Source: a virus. From it: a DNA stretch of 27,398 nt. Shown piece after piece: positions 231-24,108 of this stretch; positions within the stretch are counted from its first letter, which is position 1, and each line of letters begins with the position of its first letter. The notes beneath the pieces were generated by a model. It was not told where the DNA came from and did no database searches. It worked only from the letters and a program-made list of their open reading frames with translations. Position numbers and translations under genes: made by a program. The stretch is from positions 1 through 27,398 of the IMG/VR virus record IMGVR_UViG_3300035698_013530, one strand, 5' to 3'.

Positions 231-1622
231 ATGCCAATACACCCATTAACAATTGACGCATATAACCTGTTTCATAAAGGAATACTAGCCTTTGCTCGTG
301 CAGAAAGAGCAGGAATTCGTGTGGACTTAGACTACGTTACACGTAAATCTGAGGAACTCACAAATAAAATAGCATCCCTTGAAGAAGACCTACGAGACAC
401 TAAATTCTATAAGAAATGGAATAAGATGACCGAGAAGGAAGTAAACTACAATTCATCCACTCAACTTTCTAATTTCCTTTACAAAGAACTTGGAATAAAG
501 ATAAAGAAAGAAACAGCCAGTGGAAAAGGTGCAACTGATAAAGAGACACTGCAGAAGTTGAATATTCCGGAAATAGATATAATACTTGAAATAAGAAAGC
601 TAAAGAAAAACAGGGACACCTACCTCAAACCATTTATCAGGGAACAAGTCAATGGATACGTACATCCTTTTTTTAACCTCAACACCGTGGTAACTTTCAG
701 GTCCAGTAGTTCAAACCCGAACTTCCAGAATATTCCTAAAAGAGATGTAGAGTCAATGCAATTGGTCAGGCGAGCTATTTATCCAAGATTAGGGCATCAA
801 CTGCTAGAAGCCGATTATAATTCAATTGAAGTCAAAATCGCAGCCTGTTACCACAAAGATCCAACCATGTTAAAATATCTACATAATCCTAAGTCTGATA
901 TGCATGGAGATATGGTAAAGCAAATATTTATGATTGATGACTTTGATAAAACATTACCTTCACACAAGATTTTACGCGATGCTGCAAAGAATGGTTTTGT
1001 ATTTCCTGAGTTTTATGGTGATTATTATAAAAATTGTGCTGTAAGTATGGCTTGTGTCTGGGGGCAACTTCCTCAAGGGGGATGGAAAGAAGGTCAGGGA
1101 ATACCCATGGTAGAGGGAACATTAGCAGATCACATGATTTCCCATGGAATTAAGTCATTAAAACACTTTGAAAATCATCTTGAGAAGATAGAAAAAGATT
1201 TCTGGGAAAACCGGTTTCCTGTTTATGCTACATGGAAAGACAGGTGGTGGACTTTATATACGAAAAAAGGTTATGTTGACTCACTGACAGGATTTCGTTG
1301 TGGAGGAGTTATGAGGAAAAATGATGTTACTAATTACAGTATCCAGGGAAGTGCGTTCCATTGCCTGCTGTGGGCGTTCATTGAAATAGACCGAATTATG
1401 CAGGAAGAGAAGTGGGACTCCAGAATCATTGGTCAAATACACGATGCTATTATACTGGATGTGCATCCAGACGAGTTAGAGCATGTCAAACAAGTAATTC
1501 ATAGAGTTACCTGTGAAGATTTACCCAAGGCTTGGAAGTGGATTATCGTGCCTTTAGAGATAGAAATGGATTGCTCCCCTGTTGATAAAAGTTGGGCTGA
1601 GAAAAAAAAGATTGAGAATTAA
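231..1622 (+). CDS. DNA polymerase, family A, polymerase domain only
   Basis: Template-directed DNA synthesis at the phage replication fork. Family A motifs are present in order: motif A LLEADYNSIEVK with catalytic D195; motif B around R249 and K253, ending FYG at 261-263; motif C QIHDAIILD with catalytic D405. The first residues (AYNLFHKGILAFARAERAGI) match the thumb region that directly follows the 3'-5' exonuclease domain in full-length phage enzymes, so at 463 residues this is a polymerase domain without proofreading domain. An in-frame TGA at 216-218 rules out a longer N-terminus. The exonuclease may be a separate gene to the left. It leads the replication and recombination cluster. Confidence 0.93.
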   Translation: MPIHPLTIDAYNLFHKGILAFARAERAGIRVDLDYVTRKSEELTNKIASLEEDLRDTKFYKKWNKMTEKEVNYNSSTQLSNFLYKELGIKIKKETASGKGATDKETLQKLNIPEIDIILEIRKLKKNRDTYLKPFIREQVNGYVHPFFNLNTVVTFRSSSSNPNFQNIPKRDVESMQLVRRAIYPRLGHQLLEADYNSIEVKIAACYHKDPTMLKYLHNPKSDMHGDMVKQIFMIDDFDKTLPSHKILRDAAKNGFVFPEFYGDYYKNCAVSMACVWGQLPQGGWKEGQGIPMVEGTLADHMISHGIKSLKHFENHLEKIEKDFWENRFPVYATWKDRWWTLYTKKGYVDSLTGFRCGGVMRKNDVTNYSIQGSAFHCLLWAFIEIDRIMQEEKWDSRIIGQIHDAIILDVHPDELEHVKQVIHRVTCEDLPKAWKWIIVPLEIEMDCSPVDKSWAEKKKIEN

Positions 1623-3263: not shown

Positions 3264-3433
3264 TGAATATCATTTATATTATATTAGGGTTTTTCGGACT
3301 AGGCATTTTGGTATATACCCTGAGCAAAGTACAAATGAGAGCCTGGATTTATGTAATAGAAAAACATTTTGATTCAAAATTATTAAATAAATTATCAACT
3401 AAAATTAAACAAGATGACACAGAAAAAGAGTAA
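3260..3433 (+). CDS. small single-span membrane protein, 57 aa
   Basis: Starts with ATGATG overlapping the upstream stop and preceded by GAGGAGGG, and ends inside the SSB gene (20-base overlap). Residues 3-21 (NIIYIILGFFGLGILVYTL) form one clear membrane span, followed by a basic, charged cytoplasmic-like tail (KLLNKLSTKIKQDD). The family is not recognised. Filling an otherwise empty gap with coupled overlaps at both ends supports a real gene. A membrane protein between recombination genes is unusual. Confidence 0.65.
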   Translation: MMNIIYIILGFFGLGILVYTLSKVQMRAWIYVIEKHFDSKLLNKLSTKIKQDDTEKE

Positions 3434-4457
3434 TTTTCGTGGCAAAGTATGCCAAGATATTCAAAAAGAAAAAAGTGAATATGCTTCTTTTGGATACCTT
3501 AAAATGCCACAAGGGGTAAAGATGTATAACGTAGAAGGAAAAATTCGGGAAATAAAAATGGATATTATTCCCTACGAAGTAACTGATCCCAATCATCCTA
3601 ACAGAAACGATGCTGTGGGTATTGCCACAGTAGGTGATTTATGGTACAGGAGACCATTTAAAATACACAGAAATATAGGTGCAGAGGACGAAGCTGTAAT
3701 TTGTCCAAAATCAATAGGAAAAGCTTGTCCCATTTGTGAATACCAAAGAAAAAGGTTTAAAGAGGGAGCTGACAAAGATGAATTATCTGCTCTCCGTGCA
3801 AAGGACAGGAATTTATATGCAATAATTCCAATCGACTCAGAGAAACATGAAGAGGTTGTATATATTTGGGAAATGGCTAAGTCTTTATTCCAGGATACCC
3901 TGTCAGATGAAATTGAACTTGATCCTGAAAATGAGGTATTTCCTGACCTTGAAGAGGGTAAAACTCTACAGATAGCTTTAAAATGGAAGACTCTGGGGAA
4001 AAATACATATCCGGAAGCACGGTCTATTAAATTTAATAAGCGTGAACCTTATGATGAGTCTATTTTGGACGAGGTTCCTAACTTGGACGATATGCTTAAA
4101 ATACTTTCTTATGAGCAACTGGAAGCTAAGTTCTTTAACGATGAGGTTGAACCTGATGGTGGAAAATTACATGATGAGGAACCTGCAGAAGAATCTAAGC
4201 CGGCTCCTGAAAGAAAAAGAAAAGCAAAGCCTCTACGTGGAAGTCATTCTTCAACAGACAATCCTCCGGAAAAGGAAAAGGAAAAGGAAAAAGAAGCTCC
4301 TGTTGTTCGACGCAGGAGAAAGGTAGAGAAAACTGAGGATGCAGAAAAATGTCCACACGCACATAAATTTGGCACTGATTATGATCTTTTCTCTGAGTGT
4401 GAAACTTGTGAAGTTTGGCAGTCATGTATGGAAGAGAATGAAAAGGGGGAGGCGTAA
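3414..4457 (+). CDS. gp32-like single-stranded DNA-binding protein
   Basis: Coats ssDNA during replication and recombination. A basic N-terminus is followed by an OB-fold-like region with a zinc site (C97, C105, C108: CPKSIGKACPICE), as in T4 gp32-type proteins. After about residue 240 comes a low-complexity acidic and lysine-rich linker. The C-terminal end carries a second cysteine cluster (CPHAHKFG then CETCEVWQSC) that I have seen in related phage SSBs. At 347 residues it is slightly longer than T4 gp32 (301). It shares one base of its stop with the next ATG and sits directly upstream of the RecA-like region, as expected for a recombination complex. Confidence 0.85.
   Translation: MTQKKSNFRGKVCQDIQKEKSEYASFGYLKMPQGVKMYNVEGKIREIKMDIIPYEVTDPNHPNRNDAVGIATVGDLWYRRPFKIHRNIGAEDEAVICPKSIGKACPICEYQRKRFKEGADKDELSALRAKDRNLYAIIPIDSEKHEEVVYIWEMAKSLFQDTLSDEIELDPENEVFPDLEEGKTLQIALKWKTLGKNTYPEARSIKFNKREPYDESILDEVPNLDDMLKILSYEQLEAKFFNDEVEPDGGKLHDEEPAEESKPAPERKRKAKPLRGSHSSTDNPPEKEKEKEKEAPVVRRRRKVEKTEDAEKCPHAHKFGTDYDLFSECETCEVWQSCMEENEKGEA
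4268..4291 (+). repeat. hexanucleotide tandem repeat in the SSB linker
   Basis: Four perfect copies of GGAAAA in tandem, encoding an EK-repeat in the disordered linker of the SSB. The unit is a multiple of three, so copy-number change would alter linker length without shifting frame. Confidence 0.9.
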
Positions 4458-4810
4458 TGGCACTACTTAAAATCAAAACCAAGAGAGAAGGGTATAAGCT
4501 TGTGGGGGTTCAGATTCCCCCACAACAATACAACTATCTTGCTCTATACACTCTGGCAAAAGGTATTCCAAAGACAAAGATTTATAAAGAGGTCTTATAT
4601 AATTGGATTGATTCTCATGAAAAAAAAGAGCCTGTTAACATTTTATTACAAGAAATTATCTTCTTATTGAATACAAACTACGATAAACTGGCTGCTTCCG
4701 AGGATAACCTTATTTCACTATCTGATTATAAAGAAATAGTAAAAAAAGAACTAGAAGGTAAAAGCGTTTCAGATGAATGTATGGATTTAATTCTAAAAGC
4801 TATACAATGA
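4457..4810 (+). CDS. hypothetical, possible ribbon-helix-helix-like protein, 117 aa
   Basis: The N-terminal 50 residues fit a short basic strand followed by two helices (VGVQIPPQQYNYLALYTLAK, then PKTKIYKEVLYNWID), as in small ribbon-helix-helix DNA-binding proteins. The remainder is acidic and helical. Start and stop both overlap neighbours (TAATG before, ATGA after), and a GGGGGAGG run lies 6 bases before the ATG, though within the SSB coding sequence. It lies between the SSB and RecA-like genes and could regulate or assist them. The fold is a visual guess only. Confidence 0.7.
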   Translation: MALLKIKTKREGYKLVGVQIPPQQYNYLALYTLAKGIPKTKIYKEVLYNWIDSHEKKEPVNILLQEIIFLLNTNYDKLAASEDNLISLSDYKEIVKKELEGKSVSDECMDLILKAIQ

Positions 4811-5856
4811 TGCAAAGGACTAAAACAGACGAACCGATAAGCACACAGGTGAAGAGAAAAATAAGGACCCCTAAAGTAAAAAAGGAAGAGTATGAAGGTA
4901 ATTTTGGGACTATTATCAGCACCGGAAGTACTTTGTCTGACTTGGCAATATCAGGAGGGCGAATTCGTGGTGGGGGGATACCAGGTGGAATATTTATGGA
5001 AGTATTCGGACCTGAAAGTAGTGGAAAATCAGCACTCCTTTGTGAAATCGGAGGGGATATTCAACGTAAAGGGGGGCTTGTTCAATACCATGACCCTGAA
5101 AGTAGAATAGACCACCAATTTTCTCAAATGTTTGGGATATCCATAGACGATAAAAACTACCACCAACCCGATACCGTTACCCAAGTTTTTAAAGCAATAG
5201 ATGAGTGGAAACCTGAACCAAATGATAAACGGATTCATGGAATTATAGCCGACTCATTAGCTGCTTTAAGTACGGACATGGAAATGGAAAAGAAAGAGGG
5301 GGATAAAATGGGGGGTAGAAGGGGGAAAGAATTTTCGGAGGGTTTCCGGAAAGCTGCTCGTTTGATAAAGAGTAATAATTATTTGTTAGCTTGTTCAAAT
5401 CAGTTGCGGGATACCTTTGCTAAATTTGGTAAAAAAGAAGAAAGTCCCGGGGGACACGCTATTAAATTTTATGCCAGTCTTCGTTTAACCACAAGAATTC
5501 TCAAGTACATCACAAAAACTATAACTGTACACGGAAAAGAAGTTGAACGAGCAATGGGAGTTAACATTGAAATTAAAGTAGTTAAAAGTAGTGTTTGGAA
5601 ACCTTTAAGGACTGCTCCGTTAACTATTCTTTTTGATTATGGGATTGACGATATTCGTCAAAATCTCCAATACATAAAAGACTACACTTCAAACACTGTT
5701 TATACTCTTGGAGAAAATAAGCTTGGAAAGGGTATAGAAGAATCTATTAAAATGATAGAGGATGGTGGATTAGAAAAAGAACTCAGAGAACAAGTTATTG
5801 ATCTTTGGGAGAGTATAGAAAATAAATTCAAAATTGAACGTAAACCAAAAAGATAG
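4807..5856 (+). CDS. RecA/UvsX-like recombinase
   Basis: ATP-dependent strand-exchange protein forming filaments on ssDNA. Walker A is GPESSGKS (residues 68-75). The region corresponding to the catalytic glutamate of RecA reads HDPESRID (95-102). A Walker B-like strand is IIADSLAAL and the sensor region is CSNQLRD. Length 349 matches RecA (about 350). An upstream in-frame ATG at 4777 would overlap the previous gene by 34 bases; I chose 4807, where ATGATG overlaps the upstream TGA, the coupling arrangement used throughout this cluster. Flanking SSB, UvsY-like and resolvase genes support the role. Confidence 0.9.
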   Translation: MMQRTKTDEPISTQVKRKIRTPKVKKEEYEGNFGTIISTGSTLSDLAISGGRIRGGGIPGGIFMEVFGPESSGKSALLCEIGGDIQRKGGLVQYHDPESRIDHQFSQMFGISIDDKNYHQPDTVTQVFKAIDEWKPEPNDKRIHGIIADSLAALSTDMEMEKKEGDKMGGRRGKEFSEGFRKAARLIKSNNYLLACSNQLRDTFAKFGKKEESPGGHAIKFYASLRLTTRILKYITKTITVHGKEVERAMGVNIEIKVVKSSVWKPLRTAPLTILFDYGIDDIRQNLQYIKDYTSNTVYTLGENKLGKGIEESIKMIEDGGLEKELREQVIDLWESIENKFKIERKPKR

Positions 5857-5981: not shown

Positions 5982-6178
5982 ATATGAACCAGCCAAATGA
6001 TATCGTGATGGCCTTTGGAAATCCTGTAAAGTGTCAGGTTCCGACAGGGCAATGCAAACTTATTAAGAAAATAAGGGATGTAGGTACTATACTGGAAGAA
6101 TGGTCCGTTGAATACTTAGATGACGCGGATCATTATTATGACTTGTTAATTAAAAAGAATAGTAATGGAACGAACTAA
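5978..6178 (+). CDS. hypothetical protein, 66 aa
   Basis: Overlaps the previous stop as ATGA and overlaps the resolvase start by 14 bases. Composition suggests a small beta-rich domain: VKCQVPTGQCKLIKKI followed by EEWSVEYLDD and YYDLLIKK, as in short barrel proteins. No recognised family or catalytic motif. Co-translation with the resolvase is likely from the overlap. Confidence 0.7.
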   Translation: MNMNQPNDIVMAFGNPVKCQVPTGQCKLIKKIRDVGTILEEWSVEYLDDADHYYDLLIKKNSNGTN

Positions 6179-6713
6179 AACCACACCCGTCGCTACAATA
6201 CTCACTAACGACCCTAGTTTAACTGGTTGGGGGTATGCTGTCTTAGATCCGTTTGGTAAAATATATGCTTCCGGATGTATTAAAACTGCTCCTGAACACA
6301 AAAAACGCAGGATCAGGAAGTCCGACGACACTCAACGCAGAGCTAGTGAAATAATCAGAAAACTACTCTCTTTAATAAAACAATACGACGTTCAATATAT
6401 ATTAAGTGAATCTCCACACGGCAGTCAAAATGCCAGTGCTGCGGTTATGATTGGTTTAGTAGTTGGCATTACTCAAACAATGGCAGAGTGTCTTGATATA
6501 CCTATTGAGTATTATTCAGAGGGAGACGCCAAGAAATGTGCTTTAGGAAAGTTGTCAGCAGCTAAAAATGAAATGATAGAAGCAATGGCCGGTATCTACG
6601 GACACAAATGGAGAACAGGCACTAAGTATATTGACGAAGCCGTAGCAGACTCTCTTGGAGTGTATCATGTAGCAAGTGAAGAAAGTGTAATTTTTAAAAT
6701 GATGAGAAGGTGA
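6165..6713 (+). CDS. RuvC-like Holliday junction resolvase
   Basis: Resolves four-way DNA junctions. It has the RuvC/RNase H-fold acidic residues in order: D16 in NDPSLTGWGYAVLD, E82 in YILSESPHGSQ, and the C-terminal pair D157 and D162 in IDEAVADSLGVYH. Length 182 is close to RuvC (about 170). The ATG at 6165 follows the A-rich AAAGAATAGTA. Its stop overlaps the GTG start of the split Rad50 gene (GTGA). It lies between recombinase and break-processing genes, a complete recombination context. Confidence 0.88.
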   Translation: MERTKTTPVATILTNDPSLTGWGYAVLDPFGKIYASGCIKTAPEHKKRRIRKSDDTQRRASEIIRKLLSLIKQYDVQYILSESPHGSQNASAAVMIGLVVGITQTMAECLDIPIEYYSEGDAKKCALGKLSAAKNEMIEAMAGIYGHKWRTGTKYIDEAVADSLGVYHVASEESVIFKMMRR

Positions 6714-7780
6714 TAAAACAACTCAATATATCAAATTACCAAAGTCATAAGGACTCTGTACTTGACTTCGATCCTGGGGTCAATATAATTGTTGGAGAAT
6801 CTGACTCAGGCAAGACTGCTATTATCAGGGCACTCAGGTGGGTAATATGGAACAAGCCGACGGGCAATAGTATGAGGAGTTATTGGGGAGGTAAAACCTC
6901 AGTTGAACTTTTTACTGATGATGCTCACATTGTTCGTAGTAAGGATAAGGAAGAGGAATACATATTAGGAGATTCTCACTTTAAAGCTTTTCGCACAGAA
7001 GTACCGGAGGAGATCCAGAAAGCTCTTAATATGTCAGAAATTAATCTACAAAGACAGTTAGATCAACCTTTTCTCATATCTGAAACTGCCGGAAACGTAG
7101 CCAGTCATTTTAACAAAGTTGCTAAATTAGATCAGATCGACACAGGATTACAGAATATTAATAGTGCTATCAATCAACTCAATTCTATAATAGGTAAGGA
7201 AGCCGTAAAAGATAAACCGGCTACCGGACTCATTAAACAGATAAAGGATAAACAAATTGAACTGCTGAGTTTTGATTATCTGGAAAAGTATGAGATTGAG
7301 GTGGAGGTTTTGGAAGAGTTGGATAAGAGATATTTGTCAACTTTACAGAAGGAGACAAAACTTGAATCATTGATAAATGGCATCAATGAAATTTCTCCTC
7401 GAATCAGTGGCTTAGAAGAAACAGTAAGACTTGAAAAGCCTGTTAATAACTTGTTGATATTGTACGCTGATAAAGATAAGTTATTTAAACAACAGGGGAA
7501 TTTGATGTCATTGTTAGATGACTTTACAGATATTGGAGCTGAAACAGATAAACTCCAAATATTAACAGAACTTGAAAAACCTGTAAGTGATTTGTTAGAG
7601 TTGCACAGTAAGCTGTATATTGCCGAGAATGATGAAATAAAGCTCTCTGACGCACTTACTACTCTGGAGGGGGTAGACACATATATAGATAAGCTAACAA
7701 ACTCTATTATCGTCTTAGAAGTTGAATTTAAAGAGGGTATGGGCTCAACTTGTATTTTGTGTGGCAGTAAATTAAAATAA
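6710..7780 (+). CDS. Rad50/SbcC-like N-terminal half with zinc hook
   Basis: The N-terminal ATPase lobe of an SMC-type ABC ATPase: LNISNYQSHKDSVLDFDPG leads to Walker A GESDSGKT (29-36), and a Q-loop-like LQRQLDQPFL follows near residue 125. From about 155 onward the chain is predicted helical arm, including two related segments of about 40 residues with the core LEKPV-NLL / LEKPVSDLL. It ends with CILCG (C348, C351) only five residues before the stop, where intact Rad50 has its zinc hook at mid-protein. The signature and Walker B are absent and are found at 10693-11310. GTG start coupled to the resolvase stop. Confidence 0.85.
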   Translation: MIKQLNISNYQSHKDSVLDFDPGVNIIVGESDSGKTAIIRALRWVIWNKPTGNSMRSYWGGKTSVELFTDDAHIVRSKDKEEEYILGDSHFKAFRTEVPEEIQKALNMSEINLQRQLDQPFLISETAGNVASHFNKVAKLDQIDTGLQNINSAINQLNSIIGKEAVKDKPATGLIKQIKDKQIELLSFDYLEKYEIEVEVLEELDKRYLSTLQKETKLESLINGINEISPRISGLEETVRLEKPVNNLLILYADKDKLFKQQGNLMSLLDDFTDIGAETDKLQILTELEKPVSDLLELHSKLYIAENDEIKLSDALTTLEGVDTYIDKLTNSIIVLEVEFKEGMGSTCILCGSKLK

Positions 7781-7787
7781 TTATATT

Positions 7788-8162
7788 ATGGAAACAAAAA
7801 ATGCATTAATTACAGGAACTATGTTAGGAATAGAAGAGCATGGAATTTTAACATTCTCTCTTTATCTTGATTATGGAGGAAGTGGGCAGGCAGCTGGGGG
7901 ATTTAGTTTAGATACTCCTATTCATCAAGGAGACACTTTTATAAAAAGAATAGGAACAGCTGCTGGAATGTCTTTAATAATGAGAATAATTACAGTAGTT
8001 GGAGTTGAAAAATGGGAGGACTTAAAAGGAAAATATATTAGAATAAAAGGGGATTTCACTCAAATTCAAGCTATTGGAAATGTTATTAAAGATGACTGGC
8101 TTGACTTTAAACAATTTTTTGAAGAGATTAAGCCATTTATCCAACTTATTAAACCTGAATGA
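7788..8162 (+). CDS. conserved phage protein of unknown function, 124 aa
   Basis: Contains GTMLGIEEHGILTFSLYLDY, then GGSGQAAGGFSLDTP and VGVEKWEDLKGKYIRIKGD, ending with GNVIKDDWLDFKQF. I recall this glycine-rich pattern from many unannotated phage and mobile-element proteins, often outside Bacteroidetes as well. It looks like a small beta-rich domain, with no catalytic motif I can name. It sits between the Rad50-like N half and the Mre11-like gene, and is ATGA-coupled to the latter, so a link to that complex is possible but unproven. Confidence 0.75.
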   Translation: METKNALITGTMLGIEEHGILTFSLYLDYGGSGQAAGGFSLDTPIHQGDTFIKRIGTAAGMSLIMRIITVVGVEKWEDLKGKYIRIKGDFTQIQAIGNVIKDDWLDFKQFFEEIKPFIQLIKPE

Positions 8163-9076
8163 TGAAAAGAACTAGAAATATAAAAATACCTGATGCCATA
8201 CTTACGGGTGATTGGCACCTCAGAGAAGATGTACCTACTTGTTTTAAAGGTGATTGGGAAACAGAACAATGGGACAGCGTTGTATTTGTTGCTGATCTAC
8301 AAAAGAAATATAACTGCCCTGTATTACATGCCGGTGATTTATTTCATCATTGGAAACCTAGTCCTTGGTTATTATCAAAGTGTATTGAATTATTTCCTAA
8401 AGAGTTTCACACTATTTTCGGGCAGCATGACCTTCCCCAGCACAACCTTCAATTAGAACATAAATCAGGAATCAATACTTTAAGACAAGCAGGTATTGTG
8501 AAAGTGTTAGAAGGGTGTCATTTTGGACAAGAGCCTGATTCTGAAAAAAGTTCTTTCCTTGTTTTCAGTGAAAAATTTATAAAAGGAATTACAATGTGGC
8601 CTGAACATCATATTCTTGTCTGGCATCACCTCACATATCTTCAAAAACCATTTCCCGGAGCATCAGGAGGTATGGCAGAAGGTATACTGAGGAAATATCC
8701 TCAATTCGATTTGATTGTGACAGGAGATAATCATTGCTCGTTTACCATAGAATACAAAGGTAGAAGACTCGTCAATACAGGAAACCTGACACGACAATCT
8801 GCAGCTCAAATAGATTTCAAGCCCTGTGTTTGGCTCTGGTACGCAGAAGATAACTCCGTAGAACAGGTTTACCTGCCTATACAAGAGGGAGTAATATCTA
8901 GGGAGCATATAGATAGCAAGGAGCAAAGGAATGAGCGTATAGATGCCTTTGTAGAAGAATTACAGAGTGATTGGGAGTCTAATATGAACTTTGAGGATAA
9001 CTTGAAAAAATGCTTTATTAAAAATGACATATCAAAAGAAGTGCAATCTCTAATTTACCAAGCAATTGAAAAATGA
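8159..9076 (+). CDS. Mre11/SbcD-like metallophosphoesterase
   Basis: Probable nuclease subunit of the phage break-processing complex. Calcineurin-like metal motifs in order: GDWH (D18, H20), HAGDLFHH (D60), GQHD (88-91), WHHL (H156, H157), and GDNH (189-192) followed by VNTGNLTR. Two motifs differ from the usual GNHD and GHxH. Length 305 is shorter than SbcD (about 400), with a C-terminal helical, charged region after about 245 that could dock on the Rad50 arms. ATGATG start overlaps the upstream stop. Pairing with the split ATPase supports Mre11 over a generic phosphatase. Confidence 0.85.
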   Translation: MMKRTRNIKIPDAILTGDWHLREDVPTCFKGDWETEQWDSVVFVADLQKKYNCPVLHAGDLFHHWKPSPWLLSKCIELFPKEFHTIFGQHDLPQHNLQLEHKSGINTLRQAGIVKVLEGCHFGQEPDSEKSSFLVFSEKFIKGITMWPEHHILVWHHLTYLQKPFPGASGGMAEGILRKYPQFDLIVTGDNHCSFTIEYKGRRLVNTGNLTRQSAAQIDFKPCVWLWYAEDNSVEQVYLPIQEGVISREHIDSKEQRNERIDAFVEELQSDWESNMNFEDNLKKCFIKNDISKEVQSLIYQAIEK

Positions 9077-9293
9077 AAAGCTTTTAATTCCTTTAGTTTT
9101 AGAATTAAATGAGGATTTATTACCAGAAGAACAGTTAATAGGTATCAGAACAATAGGAATAAGGGAAGGATGTCACACTATAACCGGATATGTGGGCATT
9201 ATAAAAGACTTTTCGGGACTTAATAAAGTACGGAGCGGTAATTTAAAAGCAACTGAATACAGAGGTAAAAAATTAGGAAAATTATCAATATAA
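9066..9293 (+). CDS. hypothetical protein, 75 aa, TTG start
   Basis: The only start fitting this frame is TTG at 9066, overlapping the phosphoesterase end by 11 bases; no in-frame ATG occurs near. The protein reads as a small beta domain (LLIPLVLELNEDLLPEEQ, then HTITGYVGIIKDFSGL). No recognised motif. Position in a run of five short genes between the Mre11-like and Rad50 C-half genes is the only functional hint. Confidence 0.55.
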   Translation: MKNEKLLIPLVLELNEDLLPEEQLIGIRTIGIREGCHTITGYVGIIKDFSGLNKVRSGNLKATEYRGKKLGKLSI

Positions 9294-9302
9294 AACAACG
9301 AA

Positions 9303-9497
9303 ATGGAAATACTAAAAACTTTAAAACAATCAGTCCTTGCCGTTAATAAAATATTAAAGGACAGGGTAGAAACTATGGGAACCATAGAACTCCTACGCAA
9401 TACGCATCCTACGTATCGGGGGGATTATGCAAGAGACCTTTATAAGGAGAAGCGTATAACAAAAGAAGAAACTTTATTATTTATTAAAGTATATTAA
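9303..9497 (+). CDS. hypothetical protein, 64 aa
   Basis: Leader AACAACGAAATG after a 9-base gap. The N-terminal half is helical (MEILKTLKQSVLAVNKILKD); the second half has YRGDYARDLYKEKRITKEET, which resembles a short winged or helical domain. No recognised family. It abuts the next gene without a gap. Confidence 0.6.
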   Translation: MEILKTLKQSVLAVNKILKDRVETMGTIELLRNTHPTYRGDYARDLYKEKRITKEETLLFIKVY

Positions 9498-9683
9498 ATG
9501 ATTACTCCAATTGAACTCTTACAGGAAAAATTAAGTAGATTATGGAGTGCAAGACACCATTCTTTTAAAGCTGTGAAAGAAGGTAAAATTGATAAAGAAC
9601 TTCATGAAACACATGTCAAGAACCTTACACCTATAATTGAAAGTTATAAATTTGCTATTACAATGTTAAAAAAATACACATGA
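9498..9683 (+). CDS. hypothetical helical protein, 61 aa
   Basis: Starts directly after the previous stop and ends with an ATGA overlap into the next gene. Almost entirely helix-forming residues (LLQEKLSRLWSARHHSFKAV, then a second helix ending FAITMLKKYT), suggesting a helical hairpin. No recognised family. Composition would be compatible with a coiled-coil partner of the Rad50-like subunits, which is inference from position only. Confidence 0.6.
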   Translation: MITPIELLQEKLSRLWSARHHSFKAVKEGKIDKELHETHVKNLTPIIESYKFAITMLKKYT

Positions 9684-9868
9684 AAAATTATGACTTAATA
9701 ATTCAAATATTAATGGATTTGAAACGAGTAGGAACTTTTTACCAAAATGCAATTGAACTAGATTATTATTGCATTGATTCTATTACCGGGGAAGAATTTG
9801 AAAAAAGAATTGACACTGCACTTAAAAAAACAGAAAATGAAAAAACTAGACGAACAAGATTTACTTGA
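9680..9868 (+). CDS. hypothetical helical protein, 62 aa
   Basis: ATGA-coupled to the previous gene, and its last 32 bases overlap the next gene. Begins MKNYDLIIQILMDLKRVGTF and ends with a basic, charged tail (KRIDTALKKTENEKTRR). Likely helical. No known motif. Confidence 0.55.
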   Translation: MKNYDLIIQILMDLKRVGTFYQNAIELDYYCIDSITGEEFEKRIDTALKKTENEKTRRTRFT

Positions 9869-10079
9869 CTTGAAAAACGATATTGGCGAGGCTAAAACAA
9901 AAAAGTCTGAGTTAATAGGTCAAAAAAATGCCTTAATGAACCAATTAGAAAATGAGTGGGGTTGTAAAACTGTGGAAGAAGCTCAGAAGAAACTCAAAAC
10001 AATGGGTACTGAAATTGAGGGTATAGAAGATAAGATTGAAAAGGGTGTAGCAGACCTGCAGGAAAAATATAATGTGTAA
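9837..10079 (+). CDS. small coiled-coil protein, 80 aa, candidate Rad50 arm component
   Basis: I chose the ATG at 9837 over an upstream one at 9774, because 9774 lies deep in the previous gene and adds non-conserved residues. The protein is coiled coil in two segments: LLDLKNDIGEAKTKKSELIG to about residue 35, then a short turn with EWGCKTVEEA, then IEGIEDKIEKGVADLQEKY. From memory, similar 80-residue coiled coils sit just upstream of Rad50 C-half ATPases in other phages. It could supply part of the missing descending arm of the split Rad50. Family function is not established. Confidence 0.65.
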   Translation: MKKLDEQDLLDLKNDIGEAKTKKSELIGQKNALMNQLENEWGCKTVEEAQKKLKTMGTEIEGIEDKIEKGVADLQEKYNV

Positions 10080-10084
10080 TAGTT

Positions 10085-10696
10085 ATGAAACGTAGAAATT
10101 TTCTTAAAGGTATATTTGGAGCTGCCGTAGTGGTGGCTGTACCAATAGCAGTTGTAAATAGAATAGAACAATCTGAAATACGTCACGTCTCTGACAGGTT
10201 ACATGTAGCAGATAAACTTGGAACTATAATAAAACCAATTGATGAATCTATATTTAATTCTAATGATATTCTTTTTATTTATGATGAAGAAAGGTTAATT
10301 GGATATAGTAGGTTATTTGCTTTAAATTTTTACCAAGCTCCAGTTGATGTTTCTTTACTATACCCTCCGAAAGTATGGAATGGTAAAAGAAAGAACCTTA
10401 CTAAAAAGCATAAGAAAGGAAAAAAGATATATGAAATTGATTACCACCCTACATATCATAAGGGAAGTAAACAGTGGACTTTAGATGTTGATATGGTAAA
10501 TTGGGAAGTTGATCCTATGTTATTATTAGAAAACAATAAAATGCTTAATTGTTTAATTAAACACGGTAATATGAAAATAACAGGAGATATATATTTAACC
10601 TCTCATAGCCTATCTATTCCTATGTATGATGGAATATCAGGAATTGCTACTTTTGAGGGTAGTGGGGAATTAATAACTATATTAGAAAAAGGATGA
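10085..10696 (+). CDS. putative exported protein with twin-arginine-type signal, 203 aa
   Basis: N-terminus MKRRNFLKGIFGAAVVVAVP has the RRxFLK motif followed by a hydrophobic stretch (about residues 9-25), as in Tat signal peptides; no clear signal-peptidase site (AxA) follows, so it may remain anchored. The mature part has a very basic segment (KRKNLTKKHKKGKK, about 98-111) and a beta-rich end with MKITGDIYLTSHSLSIP and FEGSGEL. No enzyme motif recognised. It starts 5 bases after the coiled-coil gene and is ATGA-coupled to the Rad50-like C half, an odd place for an exported protein. Confidence 0.75.
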   Translation: MKRRNFLKGIFGAAVVVAVPIAVVNRIEQSEIRHVSDRLHVADKLGTIIKPIDESIFNSNDILFIYDEERLIGYSRLFALNFYQAPVDVSLLYPPKVWNGKRKNLTKKHKKGKKIYEIDYHPTYHKGSKQWTLDVDMVNWEVDPMLLLENNKMLNCLIKHGNMKITGDIYLTSHSLSIPMYDGISGIATFEGSGELITILEKG

Positions 10697-11310
10697 GTAT
10701 AACAGAACTAAGAAATAATCTGGAAAGGCTTAAAGGGCAGAAAATCCAGGTCAGGAAGTCTTTGGTAGAAATCAAGCAGGAATTTAGAGATGCTAGGAAA
10801 TCTTTACATCTGCATGAAAAAGCTAAAGAAATAATTCGAATTGTAGGATTAGAAACACAAACCAAATTACAATTTCACATTAGTAATATTACTTCCCTTG
10901 CTCTTGAGTCCGTGTTCCCGGATCCGTATGAATTAAAAGCTAATTTTATACAAAGAAGAAATAAAACGGAATGTGATTTAACTTTTGTACGGGATGAAAT
11001 GGAAATAGACCCGATTGAGGCTAGTGGTGTGGGAGCAATAGACGTTGCGGCATTTGCTTTAAGAATAGCCTCGTGGAGTATGAATGTTCCTCATACTAGG
11101 AATACAATTATTCTGGACGAGCCTTTTAGATTTTTAAGTAAAAATTATCAGGAACAGGCAAGTATTATGATAAAAGAAATAAGTCAAAAACTAGGGATAC
11201 AAATAATTTTGGTCACTCATGAGACTGCTTTAACGGAATCAGCAGATAAGATTTTTAATGTTTCTATAAAAAAAGGAGTCAGTAAAATAAAAACAGGCAG
11301 CACTACATAA
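10693..11310 (+). CDS. Rad50/SbcC-like C-terminal half
   Basis: Completes the ABC ATPase begun at 6710. Residues 1-65 form a coiled coil (LRNNLERLKGQKIQVRKSL). An ABC-signature variant follows: ASGVGAIDVAAFALRIAS with S111-G112-V113-G114 in place of the usual SGGE. Walker B is TIILDEPF with D142 and E143, and the H-loop is LVTHE with H176. Walker A is absent. At 205 residues it is a C-terminal lobe with only a short arm. Two N halves and two C halves would be needed for an active dimer. ATGA-coupled to the Tat-type gene. Confidence 0.87.
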   Translation: MSITELRNNLERLKGQKIQVRKSLVEIKQEFRDARKSLHLHEKAKEIIRIVGLETQTKLQFHISNITSLALESVFPDPYELKANFIQRRNKTECDLTFVRDEMEIDPIEASGVGAIDVAAFALRIASWSMNVPHTRNTIILDEPFRFLSKNYQEQASIMIKEISQKLGIQIILVTHETALTESADKIFNVSIKKGVSKIKTGSTT

Positions 11311-14138: not shown

Positions 14139-14912
14139 TTAAATCATAAATAATTTATTGTTTGTAAGGTTTACATTAATCACTTCAAAGTTACCATCCG
14201 AATTAGATTCAACTCTTGCACACCCCCAATTCCATTTATTTATTGGAGCATACTTAGGATGGGCATCTCCAAGATGCCCTGTTGACCAACAAGTAATATC
14301 TCTATCAAATGCGGGTTCTGTGTGTTGTGACGTCCTGTGGAGATGAGAACATAATGAACTGACGTGTGTTCGCAAATACAATGTACGTGCCGGATTAACA
14401 TTAGCGGAATGCATTTTTAATTCATGCCCATGAAATACAGCTAAACCACCAATATAAATTGTTCTTTGATCTTTGATGACTGTTACTCCGAGTTCTTTAC
14501 ACCCCATTACATTTTCAAATTCAAAATACGGCAATTTTAAAAATTCAGCACATTTACTAGTCATTGTTCTTTCATAACGCTCTTCATGGTTTCCTATCTT
14601 ATAATATATTGGAACATGAAAAATATCATTCAACTCTTTAATAAATACTTTGAATGCTTCTATTTCTTGCCAAAAATCCCTTTCTCTTGGATCTGGTTCA
14701 AATTTACTTAATTTATAGCAATCTATGATATCACCATTAAGCAAAATTGAATCTATCTTTTTAATAATACCATAATTCAATGCTTCTTCAAGTGCTGGTA
14801 TGTGATGATATGGCATATGAATATCTGATAGAATAAGAGTATTATGTAATTTTTTAGGTAGATGAAAGTTAATATATTCTCTTTCAAAACTTTTAGGTAG
14901 ATTAAATTTCAT
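14139..14912 (-). CDS. calcineurin-like metallophosphoesterase
   Basis: A complete metallophosphoesterase core: LSDIHMPYHH (D30, H32), LNGDIIDCYK (D61, D64), KIGNHEERYER (N108, H109), FHGHE, and CSHLHRTS. The N-terminus (NLPKSFEREY) resembles a widespread phage family often fused to, or preceded by, an HTH-like domain. Substrate unknown; homologues are annotated only as phosphoesterases. It is distinct from the Mre11-like enzyme at 8159-9076, whose motifs differ. Start overlaps the upstream HTH-like gene as ATGA. Confidence 0.87.
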   Translation of the reverse strand: MKFNLPKSFEREYINFHLPKKLHNTLILSDIHMPYHHIPALEEALNYGIIKKIDSILLNGDIIDCYKLSKFEPDPRERDFWQEIEAFKVFIKELNDIFHVPIYYKIGNHEERYERTMTSKCAEFLKLPYFEFENVMGCKELGVTVIKDQRTIYIGGLAVFHGHELKMHSANVNPARTLYLRTHVSSLCSHLHRTSQHTEPAFDRDITCWSTGHLGDAHPKYAPINKWNWGCARVESNSDGNFEVINVNLTNNKLFMI

Positions 14913-21111: not shown

Positions 21112-24108
21112 TTACATAAATGAATTTCGTGTTCTATTTTCATACTCTAAATAACCCTGTAATGAGCCATTTTCAAATCTAATTAAAACAGAGGAAAGTC
21201 CATTCTCCCCTGATAACCCAGAAGGGACAGGCGCACCTGCCGGTATAACTCTCTCACCGGATGTTAGTGCCGCAGGATATGAATCATTTGGAAAACCGGG
21301 GGGTACAGTACCGCCACGTGCCATATTAACCCCTTTAAATAAAAATTTCCAAAATGAATTATCCCCTTTTGTAAATCCACCGGCTACTTTTGCTAACCCA
21401 CCTGTACCCACTGACAACATATCCAAAAGCACAAAAAGAAATGCTTTAGCTGCTAACTGAGCAGCTATTCGTTTAAGACTATTTACTACAATATCCCCCA
21501 TTGCTTTCCAACCTTCTCCAATTGACATAAACATATTGGTAAAAACAGTTTGCACTTCAGACAAAGCAGTCTGTAGAGCTGCTAATTTTAAAATAGTGAG
21601 GTCTACTGCCTCTATTTGACTTTTTAAAGCGTCAAATTCAGCTTGCGTTCCCTCCCCTGATGCAGCTAATTGATTAAATGTATTTTGTAAAGCCATTAGT
21701 TCCCCATTAGCCAATGCTACCATAGTTTTAAATGTCCCAAACGTAGTATTCATTTGATTAAGAACATTTAAATTACGTTCTGACTCTTTGTTTGACATAA
21801 AATTAAATGGTTCTTCCGGAGTCCCCCCTTCTGGTCCGGGAGCTAATTTGTGCCCTAATAATCCAACGGCCTCTTTTATTTTTTCTATTGATATAGCATC
21901 TACTGCTGTATTTACTAATTTTACAGCTTTTGCTAATTGTTGGAATCGTTCATCTGCTATTGGTAAAGTAGTCCCCGCTAATTCTTTTACTATTGTATTA
22001 TATAAAGAAGTCTTTTCTTTTGCTGTGTCAAAATCTTTACCCATTAATTTCGTTAAACGATTGATGCGCAATTCACCATCTGCTAATTTGTCAAAAATGG
22101 CAACTATTTTCTCACTTTCAATCTGTAATTTTTTTTGTCTTTCAATTTCCTTTAACATAGGATCTACTGGAAAATTTTTAAGTACCGTTGCAACCTTTTT
22201 TAAAGCCTCTTCTGTACCTGCAATTTTAGTATTTACATTATCAAAATCCTTTCCAAATCCTATGGTTTTGCTAGTGATATAATCTGCAATTGCTTTTTTA
22301 TCTTTCACAATATCGGATTCATACCCCTTAACCGTAGTCCTTGCATTGAGTCCATCCCCTTTACCCTGCCATTTAGTAAGATTATTTAAATCTTCTTGTA
22401 AAGTTTTTTGTAGGTTTAAATATTTAACATCATCAGTAAACCAATTTCTTTGTAATGCTATTGTCTTTACACGATTATCTTTTAATATTTTTAATCTTTG
22501 TTCTAGTCCATTTTGCAGGTCTGCTAATTGAGGTTTATCCATTGCAAACGTAACAGACAACATATCTTTAAAATAAGATTCCTCTTCTTTAGATGATCTA
22601 AAACCAGCTTTAAGTTTTGTAATACGGTCTGGAATTTCCTCCATTTTCTTCATATACTTAACTAAAGCTACCGTTGCAACCGCAATAGCTCCTGCTACCA
22701 GCGTCCATGGACTCGTTAAAACAGCCCTTAACATTTTTGTGGCTCTTAAATTCATAACCATAGCCGCATCCATAGCAACCATATTTCCGGTCACACCTCT
22801 AATAATATGAGTTAAAAATATTAATCCTTTTCCAAGTCCCGTAACCAATGTAATTAATCCGGATAGACTATATCCTAAAAGACTTAATGCCATAGCAGCA
22901 GGACCTAACGCAGCAATAAAAATCAACCATTTAATCCTATTTCTTTTTTGAGCATCTGATAAAGTGTCAAAGTGTGCTATAACTCTCTCAAAGGAATTTC
23001 CTAATCTTTCGAACACAGGAAGCATAACCGTTGCCACAGTTCCTCCAAATTTAACTACACTCACCTGTGCCTTAGCTAACTGCACATTAAATCGTTGTTT
23101 AATTGTTTGTGAAGCTACCCTAAATGCTTCAGCAGCGGAACCCGTTGCTCTTGATATTGAGTAAAATATTTTTTTATTTTCTTCAAAATTCTTTCCTAAA
23201 ACATCTAAAACTCCTGACAACGCTCTTATATTAGGAAACACCCTGCCAAGAATTGTATTTCCGTATTCACTAGACAGACGTTCTAAGTCCATTAATACCT
23301 GTAATAATCCACCTTGTTTTATAGTTTTTCTAAGTTCGTCCGCAGATGTTCCCATGTATCTTAAAGCTTTTTCCGCATCCGAAGCTGGCTTTATTTTTTG
23401 AATTGATGTCAGTATTTGCCGTAATTGCATTGCAGCCGTAGTAGCTTTAGTACCTGTACGAGTCATTGAAGCCATGGCAGCCCCTACTTGATCAAATGTA
23501 ACTCCCATAGCAGCCGCAATAGGTAATACCATACCCATTGTAGAAGCCAATGCTGTAGCCTCTGACTTACCTTCCCTTACCGTTGCAGTGAGGACATCAA
23601 CAGCCCTTGCGGCACTAAGATTTTCTATACCAAAAGCGTTCATAGCAGATGTAACAATATCTGCAACTGCTTTAACTTCCCCTAATCCTCCGGCAGAAGC
23701 CTTTGCAGACATTTCCAATACTTCCATTGCTTCGGCACCTCTAATACCAGCGGAAGTGATAAAATATAAAGCATCAGCTAATTCTTTAGGCCCTTTCCCA
23801 ACTCTAGGGGCCATTTTTAATATATCTTTTCCCCAGGCATCTACCTGACTACGAGCAACACCCACTAATCCGATTACCTTAGATAGTGATGCCTCATAGT
23901 CAGAAGCCATTTTTACAGAAGCTTTACCTGCCATCACAATAGGAAGAGTAAGAGTAGCAAGAGATAGATACCCAAATGTACGCAACCTCTGTGACATCAT
24001 ATTTAAAGAAGTTATTGTATTCTTTTGGAATTTTGTCATTGCAGCGTTAGCAGTCACCAATCCTGCGGTGTTTACCCCTAAAGTCGCGTACATCGTGCCT
24101 ATATTCAT
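21112..24108 (-). CDS. tail tape measure protein
   Basis: Sets tail length and helps deliver DNA. 998 residues, long and largely helical. The PhageMin_Tail/TIGR01760-type region lies in the first third: SDYEASLSKVIGLVG, ADALYFITSAGI, and AAAMASMTRTGTKATTAAMQ. Hydrophobic segments at about 392-439 and 466-487, and another near 886-903, are typical of tape measures. It ends with MARGGTVPPGFPNDSYPAAL and TSGERVIPAG, a C-terminal motif common to many. At about 0.15 nm per residue, a known rule for such proteins, the tail would be roughly 150 nm. The start overlaps the chaperone stop as ATGA. Confidence 0.93.
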   Translation of the reverse strand: MNIGTMYATLGVNTAGLVTANAAMTKFQKNTITSLNMMSQRLRTFGYLSLATLTLPIVMAGKASVKMASDYEASLSKVIGLVGVARSQVDAWGKDILKMAPRVGKGPKELADALYFITSAGIRGAEAMEVLEMSAKASAGGLGEVKAVADIVTSAMNAFGIENLSAARAVDVLTATVREGKSEATALASTMGMVLPIAAAMGVTFDQVGAAMASMTRTGTKATTAAMQLRQILTSIQKIKPASDAEKALRYMGTSADELRKTIKQGGLLQVLMDLERLSSEYGNTILGRVFPNIRALSGVLDVLGKNFEENKKIFYSISRATGSAAEAFRVASQTIKQRFNVQLAKAQVSVVKFGGTVATVMLPVFERLGNSFERVIAHFDTLSDAQKRNRIKWLIFIAALGPAAMALSLLGYSLSGLITLVTGLGKGLIFLTHIIRGVTGNMVAMDAAMVMNLRATKMLRAVLTSPWTLVAGAIAVATVALVKYMKKMEEIPDRITKLKAGFRSSKEEESYFKDMLSVTFAMDKPQLADLQNGLEQRLKILKDNRVKTIALQRNWFTDDVKYLNLQKTLQEDLNNLTKWQGKGDGLNARTTVKGYESDIVKDKKAIADYITSKTIGFGKDFDNVNTKIAGTEEALKKVATVLKNFPVDPMLKEIERQKKLQIESEKIVAIFDKLADGELRINRLTKLMGKDFDTAKEKTSLYNTIVKELAGTTLPIADERFQQLAKAVKLVNTAVDAISIEKIKEAVGLLGHKLAPGPEGGTPEEPFNFMSNKESERNLNVLNQMNTTFGTFKTMVALANGELMALQNTFNQLAASGEGTQAEFDALKSQIEAVDLTILKLAALQTALSEVQTVFTNMFMSIGEGWKAMGDIVVNSLKRIAAQLAAKAFLFVLLDMLSVGTGGLAKVAGGFTKGDNSFWKFLFKGVNMARGGTVPPGFPNDSYPAALTSGERVIPAGAPVPSGLSGENGLSSVLIRFENGSLQGYLEYENRTRNSFM

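Follow-up and report, generated by a model that had tools for sequence, protein, structure and literature searches.

Mre11-Rad50 (SbcCD) of archaea, bacteria and phage T4 (gp46/gp47) combines the motifs of an ATP-binding cassette (ABC) ATPase, a long coiled-coil arm with a CxxC hook, a calcineurin-type nuclease partner at the coil base and a role in recombination. All of these features recur, the recombination role as judged from gene family and neighbourhood, at a locus in the virus record IMGVR_UViG_3300035698_013530, whose complete 27,398 bases are the window analysed here and are probably a piece of a larger phage genome. Unlike in the described complexes, Rad50 of this phage consists of two genes broken at the hook, the N-half and the C-half; the C-half has a short helix and an ABC signature without the Glu, and a third small subunit, the coil protein, is associated with repeated sites on the arm. 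We consider it very probable that the locus encodes a segmented Mre11-Rad50 complex, in which the halves are assembled in trans, Mre11 sits at the coil base and the hairpin-shaped coil subunit is docked on the repeated arm sites. To our knowledge, arms of the Rad50/SMC type are otherwise covalently continuous, with both coiled-coil strands in one chain.

The structure of Pyrococcus furiosus Rad50 reportedly is that of an engineered construct from which most of the arm is absent. In its catalytic domain (1f2t, 1f2u, 1ii8) two separate chains give one ATPase lobe, and these A and B chains are among the best matches of the phage N-half and C-half; unlike in the recombinant domain, the phage split is natural. 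Unusual viral gene architectures of Mre11-Rad50 have been described as fusion proteins, e.g. Mimivirus R555, and the fusion of Bacillus phage 0305phi8-36 was reported without one of the SbcC P-loop segments (PMC3175470). In these, however, Mre11 is joined to Rad50, which is the opposite of splitting, and there is no small subunit. Division of a phage enzyme into separate proteins is also found in jumbo phages, where DNA polymerase III alpha is divided between standalone proteins presumed to restore activity together (PMC7824862), but the enzyme is a different one and has no repeated-subunit element.

Already known are the two halves as separate, unconnected PHROG families. Bacillus phage vB_BboS-125 (NC_048735.1) carries the identical module in an isolate. 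Its gp32 is an N-half ending in CPLC (PHROG 16465, 'exonuclease'), gp34 a 78-residue coil protein (PHROG 18563, unknown function) and gp35 a C-half (PHROG 15167, 'ATPase'), and an unannotated gap at 22,411-23,417 holds an open Mre11-like reading frame. These families are annotated as unrelated proteins, and the papers found describe no complex. In the open-access literature (subscription journals and preprints were outside the scope) no account of a split Rad50/SbcC, the complex or its coil subunit was found.

Results and discussion

Two complementary halves of Rad50

The original prediction had placed a Walker A motif and a CxxC hook, without a Walker B motif, in the N-half, and the signature, Walker B and H-loop, without Walker A, in the C-half. 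Motif inspection bears out both assignments (Table 1). Pfam AAA_23 matches the N-half with an E value of 7.9e-16, and Pfam SMC_N is split over the window, with profile positions 2-51 in the N-half and 135-219 in the C-half. The top PDB sequence matches are N-terminal chains of archaeal Rad50 for the N-half (1us8_A, 1f2t_A) and C-terminal chains for the C-half (3qkr_B, 1ii8_B). AlphaFold2 models the N-half as a head (residues 1-137) followed by a nearly unbroken helix (140-343) that reaches the hook, with a predicted local distance difference test (pLDDT) score of 89; the model matches the Rad50 N chains 9a9j_A and 3qkr_A in fold comparison. In 177 of 181 N-halves the CxxC is located within the last 30 residues. 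The fold of the C-half matches Rad50 C chains (1f2u_B, template modelling score 0.78 by target). For the relative L138, coil protein and C-half were folded as one read-through, with TAG read as Gln; since this link is artificial, the model was used solely for secondary structure and the C-lobe fold. The alignment for one structure prediction was built without GenBank rows.

The C-half signature, which lacks the Glu of LSGGE, reads SGGGA/V in the family. Where the H-loop His is replaced by Asp (28/163 C-halves, e.g. L165, L181 and L194), Walker B is retained, and many of the Asp-176 proteins share the context DEPFKHLKG...MVSDERIxREDI. Residues 86-98 of the C-half (IQRRNKTECDLTF) are very strongly conserved, with R89 and E93 at 98%, and match no function that we recognised.

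The halves and Mre11 co-vary at Rad50 contacts

Co-variation was analysed with a Gaussian direct-coupling analysis (DCA; own script) of 146 paired sets, with an effective number of about 143. The strongest couplings between the halves include I150-I48, L157-H41, I178 with both L24 and F31, V198-I3 and E202-R7 (N-half residue first). Together, the couplings of N146-202 with C3-52 make up an antiparallel ladder (i+j about 194-209), which indicates that the coiled-coil base of Rad50 is formed by two proteins. In the heads, Walker A T36 couples to V113 of the signature, a contact expected across the ATP sandwich, and a further coupling links P120, near the Q-loop, with T175 at the H-loop. V295, I299 and I303 of the Mre11-like protein couple to K43 and I48 of the C-half and to G146 and I150 of the N-half. 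In known complexes a helix-loop-helix of Mre11 binds the root of the Rad50 coil (PMC3175470), and the coupled sites in both halves are at this docking location. Couplings between the halves reach z values of 12-13, compared with 7.7-9.5 in control blocks with RecA and the single-stranded DNA-binding protein (SSB). Mirror-tree correlations are 0.65-0.74 within the module, highest for the two halves, and 0.49-0.65 with RecA and SSB; gene linkage alone could raise the within-module values.

The original prediction of assembly in trans and of partnership with Mre11 thus gains support from the conservation of motifs and synteny and from couplings between the proteins where Rad50 contacts are expected. 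The data support that the two halves are obligate partners forming one ABC ATPase unit in trans, and that Mre11 docks at the coil base. Very improbably, the halves would instead be two unrelated SMC-like ATPases of defence or transporter type. Sequence matches of the C-half to mad3 of MADS (4e-10) and of the N-half to AriA (1.5e-11) and many other defence ATPases are in line with such an origin. It conflicts with the motifs, which are complementary, each half being without what the other has, with the zinc hook at the N-half terminus, the Mre11 partner and the recombination neighbourhood, and with the strong couplings between the halves at contacts of Rad50 type. Of the features that define Rad50, the locus has the N-lobe motifs, the C-lobe motifs and the hook, as well as, by co-variation, the antiparallel coil and Mre11 docking. 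Both lobes and both coil strands are not united in one polypeptide, and because it is never one polypeptide the phage module is set apart from ordinary Rad50/SbcC.

The split is conserved

Scans of IMG/VR with the C-half, N-half and Mre11-like families gave several hundred loci, to which one scan of GTDB genome contigs added 25. The latter come from bins of metagenome-assembled genomes (MAGs) assigned to Bacteroidota, Ignavibacteriales, Planctomycetota, Treponema, Clostridia, Thermoplasmata, Nanoarchaeota and others, and are probably phage contigs within those bins. All loci were collapsed to 210 non-overlapping contig clusters. The co-occurrence of the halves, a neighbourhood check proposed with the original prediction, is evident: all four genes are present in 159/210 clusters, and in 152/210 they follow the order N-half, Mre11, coil, C-half on one strand. 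Most of the inspected clusters without the full set run off the contig edge. No open reading frame (ORF) matching both halves, i.e. a fused Rad50, was found among the 210 clusters of fetched loci.

The Mre11-like gene and about seven further ORFs do lie between the halves in the window, as had been noted, and it had been asked which of them belong to the complex. Among 103 four-gene relatives, homologues of the window genes occur between the halves in 101 cases for Mre11, in 102 for the coil protein and in at most 19 for every other gene. Membership thus holds for the coil gene, which had not been singled out before, and not for the others.

Isolated departures from this arrangement were seen. 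In the MAG contig L243 (7884-8759) the order is reversed, the C-half being followed directly by the N-half. In the linear record of Microbacterium phage Magritte (OR553905), about 93 kb separate an N-half-like from a C-half-like gene; the N-half ends without a CxxC, and no coil homologue was found in the two stretches examined.

Decay of an SbcC gene broken by insertions, or by assembly errors, we regard as the least credible explanation, with hardly any probability. Homing-like genes of HNH/AP2 type, potentially mobile, are indeed inserted within the module of some relatives (L003, 6380-6913; vB_BboS-125, locus L005, 8407-8979), and such an insertion is a possible route of the original Rad50 split. 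Against decay, the identical split is found in 159 divergent contigs, each half with its own start and stop, the catalytic residues are near-invariant, and an intact copy was not seen elsewhere. A complete Rad50 gene elsewhere in the phage would have spoken against the original prediction. In 20 related contigs of 54-101 kb, not certified complete, no second full Rad50 was seen, because each has exactly one AAA_23 match above the cut-off, and the matching frame is always N-half-sized (300-380 residues). The window likewise has a single match above threshold.

A probable third subunit on a repeated arm

The descending helix of the C-half is short, at about 55-60 residues, so that the ascending N-half helix is unpaired over most of its length. 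Autocorrelation of the N-half arm peaks at 47 residues; 94 comes next in the ranking of matching diagonals. The spacing from Walker A to the hook falls into classes near 265 (16 proteins), 311 (about 109) and 356 residues (8), with few longer ones, and searching with a unit profile accordingly gives 2, 3 or 4 repeats; the N-half of the window has three.

The coil gene overlaps another small ORF in the window, and in many relatives it lies directly upstream of the C-half and overlaps its start (by 4 bases in 16 of them). Coil and C-half lengths are almost constant across relatives. Coil residues are numbered from a TTG at 9774; for the ATG start at 9837, 21 is to be subtracted. Couplings within the protein (L58-A70, S45-E82, A40-I84 and L30-L95; i+j 124-128) suggest an antiparallel helical hairpin, and the L138 model has two helices with a break at a conserved Cys. 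Searches of PDB, PHROGs, NCBIfam and PADLOC gave no meaningful relative of the coil family except phrog_18563 for the vB_BboS-125 copy. Derivation of the coil from the C-half or the N-half arm was considered and rejected, profile comparison being not significant (probability 10% and 6%). Equating coil I37/K41 with I3/R7 of the C-half was likewise rejected; no homology with the helix of the C-half is proposed, because the charge data favour the pair K14-E195 over this match.

Coil I37 couples to V245 of the N-half (z 12.7) and K41 to E242 (z 8.2), and these couplings recur one and two repeats higher (V292; E289 and E337). A DCA with two repeats collapsed into one was clean; with all three collapsed it was dominated by conserved columns. 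In an unbiased scan of 7,314 charge pairs between coil and N-half, the top three were coil41-N242 (p 3.3e-11), coil41-N337 (p 6.1e-8) and coil41-N289 (p 6.7e-7). Residue 41 of the coil is acidic in 13 phages, whose N-halves are 16-42% identical mutually, and by parsimony on a tree of C-half, Mre11 and RecA this represents 13 separate changes. Counting charged residues only, N242 is basic in 9/10 cases with acidic coil41 and in 1/95 with basic coil41; the figures are 8/10 and 5/80 for N289, and 9/10 and 4/64 for N337. At the equivalent site one repeat lower, N195 stays acidic in 9/9 acidic-coil41 cases (p 1) and instead swaps charge with K14 of the C-half (4/4 reversals, p 9.4e-8). As N195 follows C14 and the higher sites follow coil41, the C-half helix is placed on the lowest docking unit and the coil on each higher unit.

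Several observations weigh against this placement or against more than one coil per arm. The depth of the DCA is small. The best control charge pair reaches p 2e-8, so phylogenetic noise is not negligible; that pair involves coil46, which is at the top of most control lists and resembles a clade marker, not scattered single changes. The z value of K41-E242 alone is within the control range (up to 9.5), and the pair carries weight because of the charge swaps. Autocorrelation of the coupling block at lag 47 failed to separate the coil from controls. Repeats are 22% identical within a protein and 15% between proteins, so a change at a single contacted site might be passed on to the rest by partial concerted evolution; this homogenisation is real but small. 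The presence of several coil copies on one arm at once is inferred, as joint change of three distinct sites with a single coil residue would be hard to explain otherwise.

The same data might be read as a two-piece Rad50 with a single-copy accessory, where one coil per arm binds any equivalent repeat, e.g. as a sliding or regulatory clip. All evidence for trans assembly is compatible with this, and the similarity of repeats within a protein could copy the change at one site to the others. At just 22% identity, however, the repeats are far from uniform; N242, N289 and N337 are reversed in most charged cases of acidic coil41 though neighbouring residues differ, and a single coil would leave most of the helix of about 200 residues without a partner. 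We therefore judge a single-copy coil unlikely, and think it fairly probable, with less assurance than for the complex as such, that this is a natural Rad50 with a non-covalent descending strand of stacked identical hairpins, one per 47-residue repeat, whose arm could be built or dismantled subunit by subunit.

A proposed mechanism and its meaning

In the mechanism that we propose, one ABC ATPase unit would be formed from the N-half, which provides the N-lobe, ascending helix and hook, and the C-half, which provides the C-lobe with its short descending helix. The arm of the N-half would offer a docking site every 47 residues, the lowest taken by the C-half helix and the others by the hairpin of about 80 residues in antiparallel orientation. 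The stack of these small proteins would replace the missing descending strand up to the hook, and the number of repeats (2, 3 or 4) may determine arm length. The complex would process double-strand ends so that the phage genome can be repaired and replicated by recombination-dependent routes, a role proposed because of Mre11-Rad50 biology and the nearby genes for a recombinase, SSB-like and RuvC-like proteins and a polymerase. The original prediction had envisaged a 2+2+2 complex of the two halves and the nuclease. The split and the Mre11 partnership stand, while the simple two-piece composition probably lacks a component, since most of the descending arm seems to come from the coil protein.

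A Rad50 in pieces with a modular arm would separate the roles of heads, arm and hook. If the proposal is true, transmission of ATP hydrolysis from the heads along the arm to the hook becomes testable by omitting subunits or varying repeats. Moreover, a large family of unannotated phage genes gains a proposed function, and the scattered labels 'exonuclease', 'ATPase' and 'hypothetical protein' are explained as one complex.

The Mre11-like nuclease

The product of 8159-9076 is a Mre11-like nuclease, its activity being predicted. The family profile matches solved Mre11 structures (4hd0, 1ii7) with an E value of 2e-7; as a single sequence the window protein matches them weakly (0.005). Metal ligands D18, H20, D60, H90, H156 and H192 are essentially invariant in the family. 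The metal site occurs in two linked states: the classical N89 with H190, and a Q89/D190 pair that the window protein shares with many relatives. All listed Q89 proteins have D190, which is found with N89 too.

Gene neighbourhood

On the plus strand, a replication and recombination block leads straight into the split-Rad50 genes (Table 1).

Table 1. Features of the window. N, N-half residue; C, C-half residue.
Feature	Position	Strand	Evidence or remark
DNA polymerase I-like gene	231-1622	+	replication/recombination block
gp32-like SSB	3414-4457	+	replication/recombination block
RecA/UvsX recombinase	4777-5856	+	replication/recombination block
RuvC-like resolvase	6165-6713	+	last gene before the N-half
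Rad50 N-half: ATPase N-lobe, ascending arm helix, C-terminal zinc hook; 356 residues, GTG start	6710-7780	+	
Walker A GESDSGKT (N29-36)	6794-6817	+	sequence; Lys35 in 175/181 homologues
Q-loop Gln116	7055-7057	+	178/181 homologues
Arm repeat 1 (N192-233)	7283-7408	+	unit profile match; 47-residue periodicity
Unit-0 docking residue E195, partner C-half K14	7292-7294	+	charge swap
Arm repeat 2 (N238-282), docking residues E242, V245	7421-7555	+	unit profile, couplings, charge swaps
Arm repeat 3 (N285-329), docking residues E289, V292	7562-7696	+	unit profile, couplings, charge swaps
Third coil docking residue E337, immediately below the hook	7718-7720	+	couplings, charge swaps
Zinc hook CILC (C348, C351), final element of N-half	7751-7762	+	both Cys in 180/181
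Mre11/SbcD-like nuclease, calcineurin-like phosphoesterase, 305 residues	8159-9076	+	Metallophos E 5.9e-6
Coil subunit, helical hairpin of about 80 residues	9837-10079 (ATG start)	+	102/103 modules; charge swaps; hairpin couplings
Rad50 C-half: short descending helix and C-lobe; 205 residues	10693-11310	+	
Descending helix (C1-58), antiparallel to N142-200	10693-10866	+	coupling ladder; helix in L138 model
ABC signature SGVGA (C111-115)	11023-11037	+	G112 and G114 in 162/163
Walker B TIILDEP (C138-144)	11104-11124	+	D142 and E143 in 163/163
H-loop His176	11218-11220	+	His in 131/163, Asp in 28
Second calcineurin-like phosphoesterase	14139-14912	-	weak YaeI-like match; among minus-strand genes close to structural block

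Between the coil gene and the C-half, 10085-10696 encodes a protein starting MKRRNFLKGIFGAA, which resembles a twin-Arg or membrane signal. Homologues of this protein are found in 9/103 relatives, in 6 of those inside the module.

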